Source: Pseudomonas lalucatii (GTDB taxonomy: Bacteria; Pseudomonadota; Gammaproteobacteria; Pseudomonadales; Pseudomonadaceae). From it: 64,000 nucleotides of DNA. A program made the position numbers and the translations under genes. Positions 52,528 through 56,982 of the stretch are shown piece by piece. The first letter of the stretch is position 1. Each line of letters opens with the position of its first letter. Below the pieces are notes generated by a model. The model did not search any database. It was not told the DNA's origin and saw only the letters and a list, made by a program, of their open reading frames with translations. The stretch is from positions 558,001-622,000 of the forward strand of contig NZ_JADPMV010000002.1 of the NCBI RefSeq assembly GCF_018398425.1, written 5' to 3'.

Positions 52528-53634
52528 TTAACGATCCAACGGGCTCGACACCGCCAACCCACCGCGATTGAGCACATGGGTGTAGCTCATGGTGGTCTTC
52601 ACATCCGAGTGCCCCAGCAACTCCTGCACGGTGCGGATGTCCTGGCCGCTTTCCAGCAGGTGCGTGGCAAAGCAATGGCGCAGGGTATGCGGCGAGACCT
52701 GCTTGACGATGCCGGCTTCCCCGGCCGCGCGCTTGAAACGCCGCTGAACGCGCTTCTCATCCAGATGATGGCGCCGCACCGCCCCGCTGCGAGGATCGAC
52801 CGACAACCCGGATGCCGGGAACACATACTGCCACCCCCACTCCACCGGCGCTCGTGGATACTTGCGCGTCAGCGCCAAAGGTAGCCAGACATCACCACGC
52901 CCCTGTTCCAGCTCGGCCCTATAGGTAGCAGGCCGTTGAAAAACGTAGGCGAGGCAGGCAAGACAAGGCAAAAACGGCCGAAAAAGCGGAGTTTACGTGC
53001 TGTAAATGAGCATTTTTAGGCCGCTTTTAACGCAGTATTGCCAACGCAGGTAGTTTTTCAACGGTCTGATAGCTCGCACCACGGCCAGGTGCCGAAGCAG
53101 GGGCTCCAGCAAACGCTGCGGCAGCATGGTGACGCGATCCTTCATGCCCTTGCCATCGCGTATGAGGATTTCGCGGCGCGAGAAGTCCACGTTCTTGACC
53201 CGCAAGCGCAGCACTTCCATCAGACGCATGCCTGTGCCGTATAGCAGGCTGCAAACCAGCCAGAGTTCGCCGTCGAGCGCCGCCAGGATTCGACGCACCT
53301 CCTCGATCGACAAGACCACGGGCAACCGCTGCGGCTTCTTCGCCCTTACGACATCGGCCAGCCAGGGCAAGTCGAGCGCCAGCACCTCCTTATAAAGAAA
53401 CAGCAAAGCGGCCAAGGCTTGATTCTGCGTGGATGCCGAAACATTACGCTTAACCGCCAGCTCGCTAAGAAAGGCCTCCACCTCGGCAGCGCCCATATCC
53501 CGGGGATGACGATACTGGTGAAAGCGAATAAACCGCTTTACCCACTCGCAATAGACGCACTCGGTACGGATGGAGTAGTGTTTGAGCCGAATTCGCTCAC
53601 GCATCTGCTCGAGCAGACGAGGCTTGCCGTCCAT
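52528..53634 (-). pseudogene. intI: Integron integrase IntI, interrupted by a MITE-like insertion
   Basis: Tyrosine recombinase of integron type. The N-terminal half (53634 down to about 53068) contains the SAM-like core-binding domain and the catalytic Arg in LYGTGMRLMEVLRLR. The second half (about 52923 to 52528) contains the integron-specific extra segment ([19 protein letters not shown]), box [15 protein letters not shown] (His and Arg), the [14 protein letters not shown] region (His and nucleophile Tyr). Both halves are in one frame. A 144-bp insertion (138-bp element plus 6-bp duplication) adds in-frame sequence with a TAA at 52993-52995, truncating the product near residue 214. Removing it restores about 320 residues with R-A-(I/T)-Y-R-A-E at the join, the normal IntI length. 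Start ATG 53634 has GGGGAGG upstream. Confidence 0.9.
52930..53067. mobile_element. 138-bp MITE-like element inside intI
   Basis: Terminal inverted repeats AGGCCGTTGAAAAAC (52930-52944) and AGACCGTTGAAAAAC (53067-53053, other strand): 14 of 15 match. Flanked by GGTAGC (52924-52929) and GATAGC (53068-53073), a 5-of-6 candidate target duplication. No coding capacity; an internal AAAAACGGCCGAAAAAGCGG / GGCCGCTTTT region can form a second hairpin. It would need a transposase in trans; none in this window has matching ends. Confidence 0.78.
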
Positions 53635-53775
53635 GGTGTATAACCTCCCCAATCGGTCATCCTGACCGGGAAAACACCAGCCTAGACAGGGAACAGAGAT
53701 ATGACAAGGAAGGTTATCCACCAGTCCCGTTCGGAAAGTTATGCACCAGTAGGTGTCTATTTATAGTTATACACC
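53635..53775 (+). promoter_or_regulatory. attI: attI recombination region with four GTTATNCACC repeats
   Basis: Between intI and the first cassette lie GTTATACACC inverted at 53635-53644, then direct copies GTTATCCACC (53713-53722), GTTATGCACC (53738-53747) and GTTATACACC (53766-53775). The last would be the R core site: cleavage G/TTATAC at 53766/53767 starts cassette 1. The direct copies at 25 and 28 bp spacing resemble the DR1/DR2 and core integrase sites of known attI. A CGGTCA-TCC-TGACCG palindrome is at 53654-53668. Confidence 0.65.
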
Positions 53776-53801
53776 TTTGCCATCCAGCACCGGCGCTGCC
53801 C

Positions 53802-54101
53802 ATGAAAGTCATTTATAAAATCACGTACCCAAATGGCAAAATTTACGTCGACAAAGACCTGACCGGAACGCTAAATTATTTTGGCAGCGCCAACAGCAAA
53901 CTAATTGAACGTGACTTTACCGCTGAACAAATGCGTGACTTTACAGTTCGCAAGCAAATCCTCTGGGAATCAGAAACGGCAACCGAAAAGGAAGTAAATC
54001 TGAAAGAGGTGGAGCTTATTAAAGAGCTAGAGGCAAACAACCCAAGCATCGGTTATAACCAATGGCCAAAATTCAAGGCCACCGTGCAGGCAGGCGTATA
54101 A
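53802..54101 (+). CDS. Cassette 1 product: small GIY-YIG-like protein, 99 aa
   Basis: [19 protein letters not shown]... matches the start of GIY-YIG nuclease domains: VIYKIT is the GIY strand and KIYV-D the YIG strand, with the glycine replaced by Asp. A basic helix residue (Arg in TVRKQILWE) and a Glu in [10 protein letters not shown] could be the remaining catalytic positions. If the Asp replaces an essential Gly the protein may be inactive or structurally adapted. Single-domain length fits cassette-borne members. Starts 35 bp into the cassette; the stop overlaps the attC R'' box, as is common for cassettes. Codon usage is A/T-rich compared with neighbours. Confidence 0.78.
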
Positions 54102-54172
54102 CATGTGGTTCAAGCCGTTCGCTTCGCTCACTCGGGACCGGCTAAAGCCGGCCCCTTAACCAAACGTTGAGG
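54096..54172 (+). repeat. attC site of cassette 1
   Basis: R'' GTATAAC (54096-54102) to R' GTTGAGG (54166-54172), 77 bp. Inner boxes TGGTTCAAG and CTTAACCA pair with one extrahelical base, and GCCGGC-type stem bases lie between (CCGGCTAAAGCCGG). R'' GTATAAC is the exact reverse complement of GTTATAC at 53766, the first bases of the same cassette, as expected for a cassette inserted at attI. Nearly identical to the second attC at 56443-56517. Confidence 0.88.
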
Positions 54173-54249
54173 CTGTAGAAAAGCCTACTGCCCCCCAATC
54201 CGCTGGCTGATGATCTCCAGCTCATTCAATCGCAGGGAGGTGCGGGGCG

Positions 54250-55835: not shown

Positions 55836-55842
55836 CCTCAAC
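55836..55842 (+). other. R''-like box CCTCAAC inside the IS right end
   Basis: Exact reverse complement of GTTGAGG, the R' box at 54166-54172 that begins this segment. If it is a real R'' the segment 54167-55942 would be a complete cassette carrying the transposase. Spacing to the following inverted repeat is lopsided (2 nt versus 15 nt on the other side), which argues for chance. Confidence 0.3.
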
Positions 55843-55954
55843 AGCCCAAAAAACACCGCACCTCGATACCTACCCGACTTCTTCAGAAAAGTGCGGTGAG
55901 GACCGAGGAGCGAGGTGTTTTTGGGGTTTTTCTACAGTTCCGTTAGAGGGAAAC

Positions 55955-56449
55955 ATGCGAGCAGTACGCTGGCTACAGACACTCTTTGCCATACTCTCGA
56001 TTCCTTGCTTGCTGGGCTGGATAATTATCACCCTAGCTGCCGTAACACATCTACCCGAAACTATCGAAACCTTAGCGGCCTCCGAGTCCGTCTTTAAACT
56101 CCTTAAAGGTCTAGCAACCACTTTGTTAGCCTCAATCGTTATCGCTCTTGGTTGGTGGGGCTGGCACTCTCTATGGTGGGCGTATCTTTTTTACCCACCT
56201 TTAGCCCGCAGATATCCCAAATGGGTTACATTGGGCAATATTGCTGGAGCCAGCATCGTCTTAATTCATCTCGCATTTCTCTTAACTTACTCACGACCAA
56301 TCAGCTTAAAATTAATTGAACTGCCCGAGGCGACATCTCATTTTTCTCCTTTATTTCTTCTATTTGGTGGAGCCCCACTTCTCCTACTATCCACTAACTT
56401 ATTAGCAGCTCACCATCAAAGAAAATCACTATGTGCGCACAGCCTCTAA
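55955..56449 (+). CDS. Cassette membrane protein, 164 aa
   Basis: Unrecognised multi-pass membrane protein. Hydrophobic segments at about 7-32, 47-80 (with GWWGWHSLWWAYLFY), 93-112 and 134-153; short loops. Starts 13 bp into the cassette with AGAGGG as Shine-Dalgarno, and its TAA stop lies in the R'' box of the following attC. A/T-rich relative to the backbone. The cassette begins G/TTAGAGG (55942) and its attC R'' is CCTCTAAC (56443), exact complements, which proves the two ends belong together. No function can be assigned. Confidence 0.75.
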   Translation: MRAVRWLQTLFAILSIPCLLGWIIITLAAVTHLPETIETLAASESVFKLLKGLATTLLASIVIALGWWGWHSLWWAYLFYPPLARRYPKWVTLGNIAGASIVLIHLAFLLTYSRPISLKLIELPEATSHFSPLFLLFGGAPLLLLSTNLLAAHHQRKSLCAHSL

Positions 56450-56517
56450 CATGTGATTCAAATCGTTCGCCTCGCTCACTGGGACGGGCTAAAGCCCCCT
56501 TAACCAAACATCAGGAG
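56443..56517 (+). repeat. attC site of the membrane-protein cassette (R' box degenerate)
   Basis: R'' CCTCTAAC (56443-56450), then ATGTGATTCAAAT...CTTAACCAAAC as in the first attC. The expected core GTTAGGAG reads ATCAGGAG (56510-56517), two transitions away. The GTT needed for integrase cleavage is therefore lost at this junction. Confidence 0.82.
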
Positions 56518-56523
56518 ATACAA

Positions 56524-56982
56524 GTGTTTACACTAGGTATCGTTGGCTGGCTATCCATGATGGCAGTTCCGCTTTTTCTATTCTATTTACTACTAGCTTT
56601 AATATTATCGATATCAGTATTTATTATAAACAGATCAGCCAACTCCATCCGACTCAACGTTACTTCTTTTCCTCTAGTCGGATATACAAGCCTTGCATGG
56701 CTAACCAGCGTTGGCTTACTCCTTCTGGCATCCATCCTAAATTATAAATTTACGCACTATTCGGGAGATACAATTCTTAAACTCTACCCTATAACACAGC
56801 AGACTGCAGGAGCTTTCATTTTTTATCTGCTATGCAAATCATGCCTTGTTAAAAAGACGGGAAAGCCAGAACTAAGCAGTTCAAAGCGACACCTATTATC
56901 TGCAGGAATCGCGGCGATTCCAACTGCCACTATTGTTTTGGGAGGTAGCATATGGCACCTACTTCGACAATCTCCTAACTAG
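56524..56982 (+). CDS. Last cassette membrane protein, 152 aa
   Basis: Unrecognised protein with four hydrophobic segments (about 5-33, 46-68, 90-110, 125-145) and a Lys-rich loop near 115. Start is GTG at 56524 with GGAG six bases upstream; the only alternative frames upstream run through the attC. The gene ends in CTCCTAAC-TAG (56972-56982); CTCCTAAC is the complement of the inferred original cassette start GTTAGGAG, so it is probably the R'' box of this cassette. The rest of its attC is not recognisable. Confidence 0.7.
   Translation: MFTLGIVGWLSMMAVPLFLFYLLLALILSISVFIINRSANSIRLNVTSFPLVGYTSLAWLTSVGLLLLASILNYKFTHYSGDTILKLYPITQQTAGAFIFYLLCKSCLVKKTGKPELSSSKRHLLSAGIAAIPTATIVLGGSIWHLLRQSPN

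Follow-up and report, generated by a model that had tools for sequence, protein, structure and literature searches.

An IS1182-family insertion sequence at an attC site of a chromosomal integron in Pseudomonas lalucatii, and evidence for a group of attC-targeting relatives

The IS1111-attC group of insertion sequences (IS), with ISPst6 and ISKpn4, was reportedly described by Tetu and Holmes in 2008 and by Post and Hall in 2009. In two accounts it appears as an IS group that targets one end of the attC sites of integrons (PMC11187229, PMC12444791) and whose DEDD transposase acts with a seekRNA. Group IIC-attC introns are likewise mobile elements that home to attC (PMC7923331); they are RNA-based retroelements and not DDE transposons. 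In the IS1182 family, the staphylococcal element IS1272 is reported (PMC5678879, PMC4923244) as using any inverted repeat, removing the hairpin and leaving no target duplication; for both IS1272 and TnSha1 the hairpin structure sets the target. Here we analyze a chromosomal integron in a stretch of 64 kb from Pseudomonas lalucatii (the whole stretch is called the window below). The locus is an integron with a broken integrase, whose array was very probably entered by two unrelated attC-seeking elements, and the element at the first attC site (attC1), an IS of 1773 bp, would belong to a group of the IS1182 family that selects attC. We read this group as a parallel to the IS1111-attC group and the group IIC-attC introns.

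The insertion point of the IS coincides precisely with the right core of attC1, the junctions being CGTT/IS/GTTAG (slashes mark the points of joining); the left GTT is the conserved right-core triplet of attC1, and the right GTT opens cassette 2 (GTTAGAGGG). Its single open reading frame (ORF) is enclosed by terminal inverted repeats with arms of 13 nt (54173-54185 and 55925-55937, 92% complementary), and an inverted-repeat search at 29 loci of relatives, with a few hits off the true ends, gave 13 to 18 matching positions out of 18. The IS takes up about half of the array and is present in one full copy in the source genome. Its 504-aa transposase, the largest ORF of the array, matches the IS1182 and IS5-type families and is of the DDE and not of the DEDD type found in IS110/IS1111 elements; the IS shows specific insertion into attC and so behaves like the IS1111-attC group without being a member of it. 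A preliminary description of this DNA had listed two unknown proteins and one nuclease-like protein as the contents of the array and had left the transposase out.

The same left junction within attC was found in P. sagittaria, where both the first cassette and the attC are unlike those of the window, in Pseudomonas sp. SJZ079, in genome G287 (two copies, 89% at the nucleotide level) and on contig C18 of genome G093 (84%); a further G093 copy, on contig C4, lies outside attC (G and L numbers are our labels for genomes and loci). Across 398 Pseudomonadaceae genomes, a pattern made of the triplet and the IS left end matched at 20 places, spread over 10 of the genomes, and by eye 18 of these follow attC sites of several types and two do not (L253, L256). 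At one of the 18, L261 (G913:C25:363590), the IS left end GTTGAGGCTGTAGAAAAACC stands behind the attC but gives way to non-IS sequence, which would fit an isolated IS end or a different element that shares this terminus. When ends were located starting from the transposase gene, GTT was found within 8 nt of CTGTAG at all 62 left ends located and at 57 of 59 right ends, where the next base was mostly A (51 cases) and otherwise G (5) or C (1).

For a quantitative comparison we used all left junctions that were non-redundant and had 80 bp or more of upstream sequence, 78 in total after five had been dropped as too short and five as duplicates. A transposase start is situated within 260 bp in 69 of them, the encoded proteins being 37-91% identical to that of the window (the window itself aside). 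Only four related pairs were seen among the 75 usable stretches 150-450 bp upstream, and the insertions are therefore independent. A junction was scored as attC-like if TAAC was present at a distance of 30-150 nt together with complementary arms of at least 6/7, and a random half of the GTT positions in the same loci served as controls. This applied to 62 of the 78 junctions and 837 of 5241 controls; with perfect 7/7 arms the numbers were 49 of 78 and 226 of 5241. The control rates are upper bounds, because the control loci include real attC sites. A fold test based on energy alone separated poorly (43 of 48 junctions against 187 of 558 controls at -5 kcal/mol), and the arm test was used in its place; RNAalifold returned no consensus pairs for 17 diverse junction hairpins, the alignment being too loose.

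The left arm of attC carries an unpaired extra base, which is visible in our attC alignment as well. In a symmetric arm test demanding perfect 8/8 arms, this base was distal to the IS at 33 of the 78 junctions and proximal at none, compared with 31 and 1, respectively, of 1895 CGTT controls; by overall arm score the distal arrangement was better at 58 junctions, the proximal one at 2, and 18 were equal. It follows that the IS occupies the right foot of attC and does so in a single orientation. Wherever the orientation can be read, the left end of the IS faces the hairpin, so that its transposase gene has the same direction as the cassettes.

Several observations weigh against an attC-selecting group. 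The transposase of the window clears the IS1182 model by only 1 bit, the 78 junctions were chosen by a pattern that itself contains GTT, nine of them are without the beginning of a transposase gene in the first 260 bp (in several cases because the contig stops), and at 6/7 the hairpin test lets 16% of the controls pass. GTT is missing from two right ends, namely L317 and the damaged extra end L215, and of four transposase-anchored loci at which the left-end pattern was not matched, three show GTT next to a variant end and one, L230, shows no end. The 3-bp duplication is deduced from the flanks. Finally, 16 of the 78 junctions fail the hairpin test: two of these (L240 at 3095, L309 at 3167) follow immediately on another copy's right end, five are attC-like by eye (L228, L246, L320, L327, L329), and nine show no attC by eye (L238, L247, L253, L256, L330, L331, L333, L336, L338). 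On account of these nine the choice of attC is strong but not absolute.

Copies outside attC are what would be expected if the IS took any hairpin beside CGTT, as IS1272 does, and struck attC sites merely as hairpins. We consider this improbable. Genomes contain more terminators and repetitive extragenic palindromic (REP) sequences than attC sites, which counts against such an indiscriminate element, and yet about four fifths of the junctions passed the attC test; moreover the TAAC core, the arms and the distal extra base recur at the junctions. Hairpin targeting without sequence specificity is on record for IS1272 and TnSha1 (PMC5678879, PMC4923244) and agrees with the minority of copies outside attC; however, IS1272 reportedly deletes the hairpin and makes no duplication, whereas here the hairpin is kept and GTT is present at both ends. 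It is less probable still that the IS is an ordinary gene cassette, put beside attC by the integron integrase rather than by its transposase. Its left boundary does coincide exactly with a cassette boundary (GTT/GAG), and transposase genes have been reported among cassette genes (PMC12444791), but in the window there is no attC between the transposase gene and the following ORF, in relatives the 3' end of the IS is an inverted copy of the 5' end while the right flanks vary between copies, and about nine copies are found outside any visible attC. That only the integron matters here, with a chance insertion at attC1 and a recurrence due to common descent of a few old insertions, can practically be dismissed: five junctions with identical flanks were indeed present and were dropped, but 78 distinct left flanks are left, the transposases are diverged, and the unrelated upstream stretches described above already refute it.

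For the IS1182 group with a preference for attC, the target point, the orientation, the terminal repeats, the GTT on both sides and the retained hairpin can be read in the sequence. Insertion is at the right core (R', C-GTT-RRRY) of attC, and staggered joining would duplicate the GTT triplet, as suggested by its presence at both flanks. The attC hairpin stays whole and the IS terminus GAG would re-create GTTRRR, and the upstream attC may for these two reasons remain usable. The IS would thereby turn into the 5' part of the next cassette and might be moved by an active IntI. Because the attC sequences at the junctions differ and share mainly the core sites, the hairpin and the extra base, we think that the transposase may read the folded attC. 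A more far-reaching proposal, which we regard as a serious possibility though not as the probable one, is that these elements constitute a third, independent class of attC-homing elements: an IS1182 clade distributed across the class, with a DDE transposase that would recognize the folded single-stranded attC, enter at R' only and in one orientation, and rebuild the core with its ends, so that copies would join cassettes mobile by the host integrase.

Compared with the described systems, the IS1111-attC copies examined here enter at the left core (TAACAANNG/TATATGG) and the IS1182 group at the right core, and the IS1182 group differs further by its terminal inverted repeats and by GTT on both sides. 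In contrast to IS1272, it prefers attC, keeps the hairpin, shows GTT at both ends and, where readable, has a fixed orientation; it retains the hairpin preference but handles its target differently. Homing of an IS1182 group to attC was not described in the titles and abstract openings of the literature searched, which was covered mostly in its open-access part and may hold an earlier mention; PMC9137128 names IS1182 once, in a table entry without bearing on this question. As far as could be checked, the group is thus new. If it is real, attC would be a target found separately by unrelated elements, namely those of the IS110/IS1111 type, group IIC introns and a DDE-type IS, and if the transposase reads folded attC, such elements would reveal the places at which attC hairpins arise in the living cell. 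By entering at the core point and rebuilding the core, the IS could travel within cassettes, and the junction CGTT/GAGGCTGTAGAAAA might serve as a simple marker for cassette arrays that are otherwise hard to see.

At E <= 1e-100, 34 of the 390 genomes searched in the order carry relatives of the transposase, and at E 1e-30 the class gives 23 out of 369 (the source genome included in both counts); a database search at E 1e-60 returned at least 7893 related proteins among the 8000 candidates scored. Within the order, 28 of the 33 IS-bearing genomes have an IntI above the model cut-off, as against 20 of 45 genomes without a match at 1e-100 (Fisher p 0.00025). In genome G1309 (L309) the right end of one IS abuts the left end of the next (CTACAGACTCGTTGAGGCTGTA), as if tandem insertions had occurred at one attC. 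Viral contigs gave 18 exact matches to the IS end, with a relative of the transposase only on IMGVR_UViG_3300031669_005977 (L287), where it is full-length (55% aa) and where by eye GTT, a TAAC core and a hairpin-like stretch lie upstream; this locus is outside the counts given above. At L279 and L280, where the stretches are cut off, the viral matches look like an IS end outside attC, and we read the remaining viral matches as chance. Plasmids gave no DNA match to the IS and two distant protein matches, both in Pseudoalteromonas records; in one (L290) an attC-like stretch with 6/7 arms precedes the IS end, and in the other (L289) the end pattern was not matched.

The second attC-seeking element is situated at the end of the array and had been overlooked in the preliminary description. 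In many Pseudomonas integrons, the sequence that spans about 56987-57271 in the window is met again immediately 3' of an attC left core, mostly as TAACAANNG/TATATGG, and in the alignment that defines the third left core in the window, TAACAA precedes TATATGG in most sequences. A related copy (L116) continues into a gene for an IS110-family transposase (NF033542, 287 bits), which is absent from the window. We read this segment as a probable IS110/IS1111-type remnant in a third attC, matching the known IS1111-attC group. An alternative reading of positions 56974-57131 as one long attC was rejected (fold z -0.5), because the copies run into the IS110 transposase region. The features of the locus are collected in Table 1.

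Table 1. Features of the integron locus and its neighbors (window positions)
Feature	Position	Strand	Evidence
gld-type ABC transporter ATPase, left neighbor	51448..52371	-	PF00005; TIGR03522 GldA is best NCBIfam match, 313 bits, below its cut-off of 402.6
Integron integrase, C piece	52528..52929	-	TIGR02249 positions 183-314, 215 bits
MITE-like inverted-repeat element inside intI, ~147 bp	52924..53070 (ends approximate)	.	22-bp arms, 86% complementary
Integron integrase, N piece	53068..53634	-	TIGR02249 positions 1-182, 257 bits; PF13495
Probable attI crossover triplet GTT	53766..53768	+	Suggested by comparison with L105
Cassette 1 ORF, 99 aa	53802..54101	+	Homologues (P0133, 90% identity) partly named GIY-YIG nuclease family protein
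attC1, to right-core triplet GTT (54166-54168)	54096..54168	+	Covariance model 89.4 bits, E 6e-24, over 54096-54172
IS1182-family insertion sequence, 1773 bp, ends GAGGCTGTAGAAAA / TTTTCTACAGTTCC, GTT on both sides	54169..55941	+	Terminal repeats and junctions compared
IS transposase, 504 aa, intact frame	54250..55764	+	NF033551 IS1182, 271.1 bits (cut-off 270); PF13751, PF05598
Second GTT triplet, then AGAGGG, start of cassette 2	55942..55944	+	Junction read
Cassette 2 ORF, 164 aa	55955..56449	+	No Pfam/NCBIfam match at E 0.1; 3 homologues
attC2, degenerate	56444..56516	+	Covariance model 61.7 bits, E 1e-15
Cassette 3 ORF, 152 aa	56524..56982	+	No Pfam/NCBIfam match at E 0.1
attC3 left core CCTAACTAGTGG, cut off by next element	56974..56986	+	Alignment, 16 sequences from 15 sources
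Putative IS110/IS1111-type element end, remnant without transposase, in attC3	56987..57271	+	Related copies elsewhere
plsB, right neighbor	57357..59837	+	NF003441 PlsB, 1128 bits

The integrase had been proposed to be of the IntI type, and this assignment stands, although the gene is not intact. The two pieces joined score 467.9 bits with TIGR02249, while the XerC model gives 62 bits for the N and 90 bits for the C piece. In trees each piece falls among the IntI of Pseudomonas and Stutzerimonas (top identity 86% and 85%) and apart from the Xer-type proteins of the genome; the Xer outgroup branches are very long, so that the placement among IntI can be read from these trees but little beyond it. 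The insert between the pieces is short, non-coding and bounded by inverted termini, and it has relatives at four other sites in the genome, as expected of a miniature inverted-repeat transposable element (MITE). It contributes an in-frame TAA (52993-52995) ahead of the C-terminal part, and the integrase would thus not be a working one. The HxxR and Y catalytic boxes, whose positions we take from the family, are in the C piece; a truncated N-terminal product would be without the catalytic H-R-Y part, and the integrase is broken in sequence and presumably lost its activity. An insert 99.3% identical is found at the same point of intI in genome G185, in which the neighboring ABC ATPase is 94% identical, and the break is therefore probably older than the separation of these two species. 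Elements of about 145 bp with inverted repeats form a family in the source and related genomes (L016-L019, L058, L106, L054).

An attC covariance model trained on 25 sites from other Pseudomonas arrays found two sites in the window; apart from these it matched, at E <= 1, only a portion of the first site on the reverse strand (E 0.21). The array, divergent from intI as had been observed, consists of two attC sites and the left core of a third. The two sites had been called near-identical, which does not hold: the bottom strand of attC1 folds (z -2.1), whereas attC2 carries ATCAGGA in place of GTTRRRY, has a terminal stem shortened by three positions and shows no attC-like fold (z +1.1). Sequence common to the window and P. 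sagittaria (L105) stops near the GTT at the probable attI site, and the first cassettes differ. The nuclease-like protein noted earlier corresponds to cassette 1. Among its close homologues, some bear the name GIY-YIG nuclease family protein and others are called hypothetical; the protein matches no Pfam or NCBIfam model at E 0.1, and more than 7000 database relatives of it exist nonetheless. The two unknown proteins are the ORFs of cassettes 2 and 3. The array had been judged short and decayed, which is correct but an understatement; the broken integrase and the two attC-seeking elements had been missed.

Family models, the attC model and the trees agree in placing the integron between the gld-type ABC operon and plsB, as described before. 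In the window 4985 bp separate the ABC gene from plsB. Within 1.5 kb around plsB in 29 relatives, the ABC gene was found at 273-853 bp in three; in 12 longer stretches it was reached in six, the same three and three more at 10.3-12.5 kb. The attC model had no match in the three short intervals (L094, L101, L102). Of the wide intervals, that of G054 (L096) holds an intI fragment and seven attC matches, and those of G012 and G008 have no match to this model; G012 does show a weak and short resemblance to integrases (51% over 76 residues). In Pseudomonas sp. 8O (L107), intI and seven attC matches are present together with both neighbors, and G185 (L304) has both neighbors 6.8 kb apart with integron sequence including the broken intI between them. 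In S. nitrititolerans (L106) intI adjoins the ABC genes on one stretch, and in P. sagittaria (L105) the two are likewise on one stretch. The earlier view of an insertion into conserved backbone fits the short intervals, but the presence of integron sequence in 8O, G054, G185 and S. nitrititolerans makes the interval, as far as these genomes show, a shared and recurrent integron site in pseudomonads. Overall, the observations of the preliminary description were partly confirmed and their interpretation partly supported.

IntI above the TIGR02249 cut-off occurs in 25 of 199 genomes of the genus, and the integron of the window belongs to a known kind, of which it is an ordinary and inactivated example. 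It resembles the chromosomal integrons of P. stutzeri, P. alcaligenes and other pseudomonads in its IntI clade, its attC type of about 76 bp and its small array of unknown genes, and it differs in the MITE-like element that interrupts intI and is shared with a related species, and in an array carrying two kinds of attC-seeking elements. In the whole genome at least seven attC sites were recorded at E <= 0.001 (150 of 1670 first-look candidates scored). Paired sites at G000:C2:461934-462737, with no above-cut-off integrase nearby in the genome search, resemble a cluster of attC sites lacking integron integrases (CALIN), and lone sites are located at 116.7 kb and 2377.4 kb of contig C1 and at 645.3 kb of contig C2. 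A second integron integrase fragment is situated about 230 kb away from the integron of the window (G000:C2:841290-841748, L031:7279-7755) and matches positions 158-312 of TIGR02249 with 178-181 bits.

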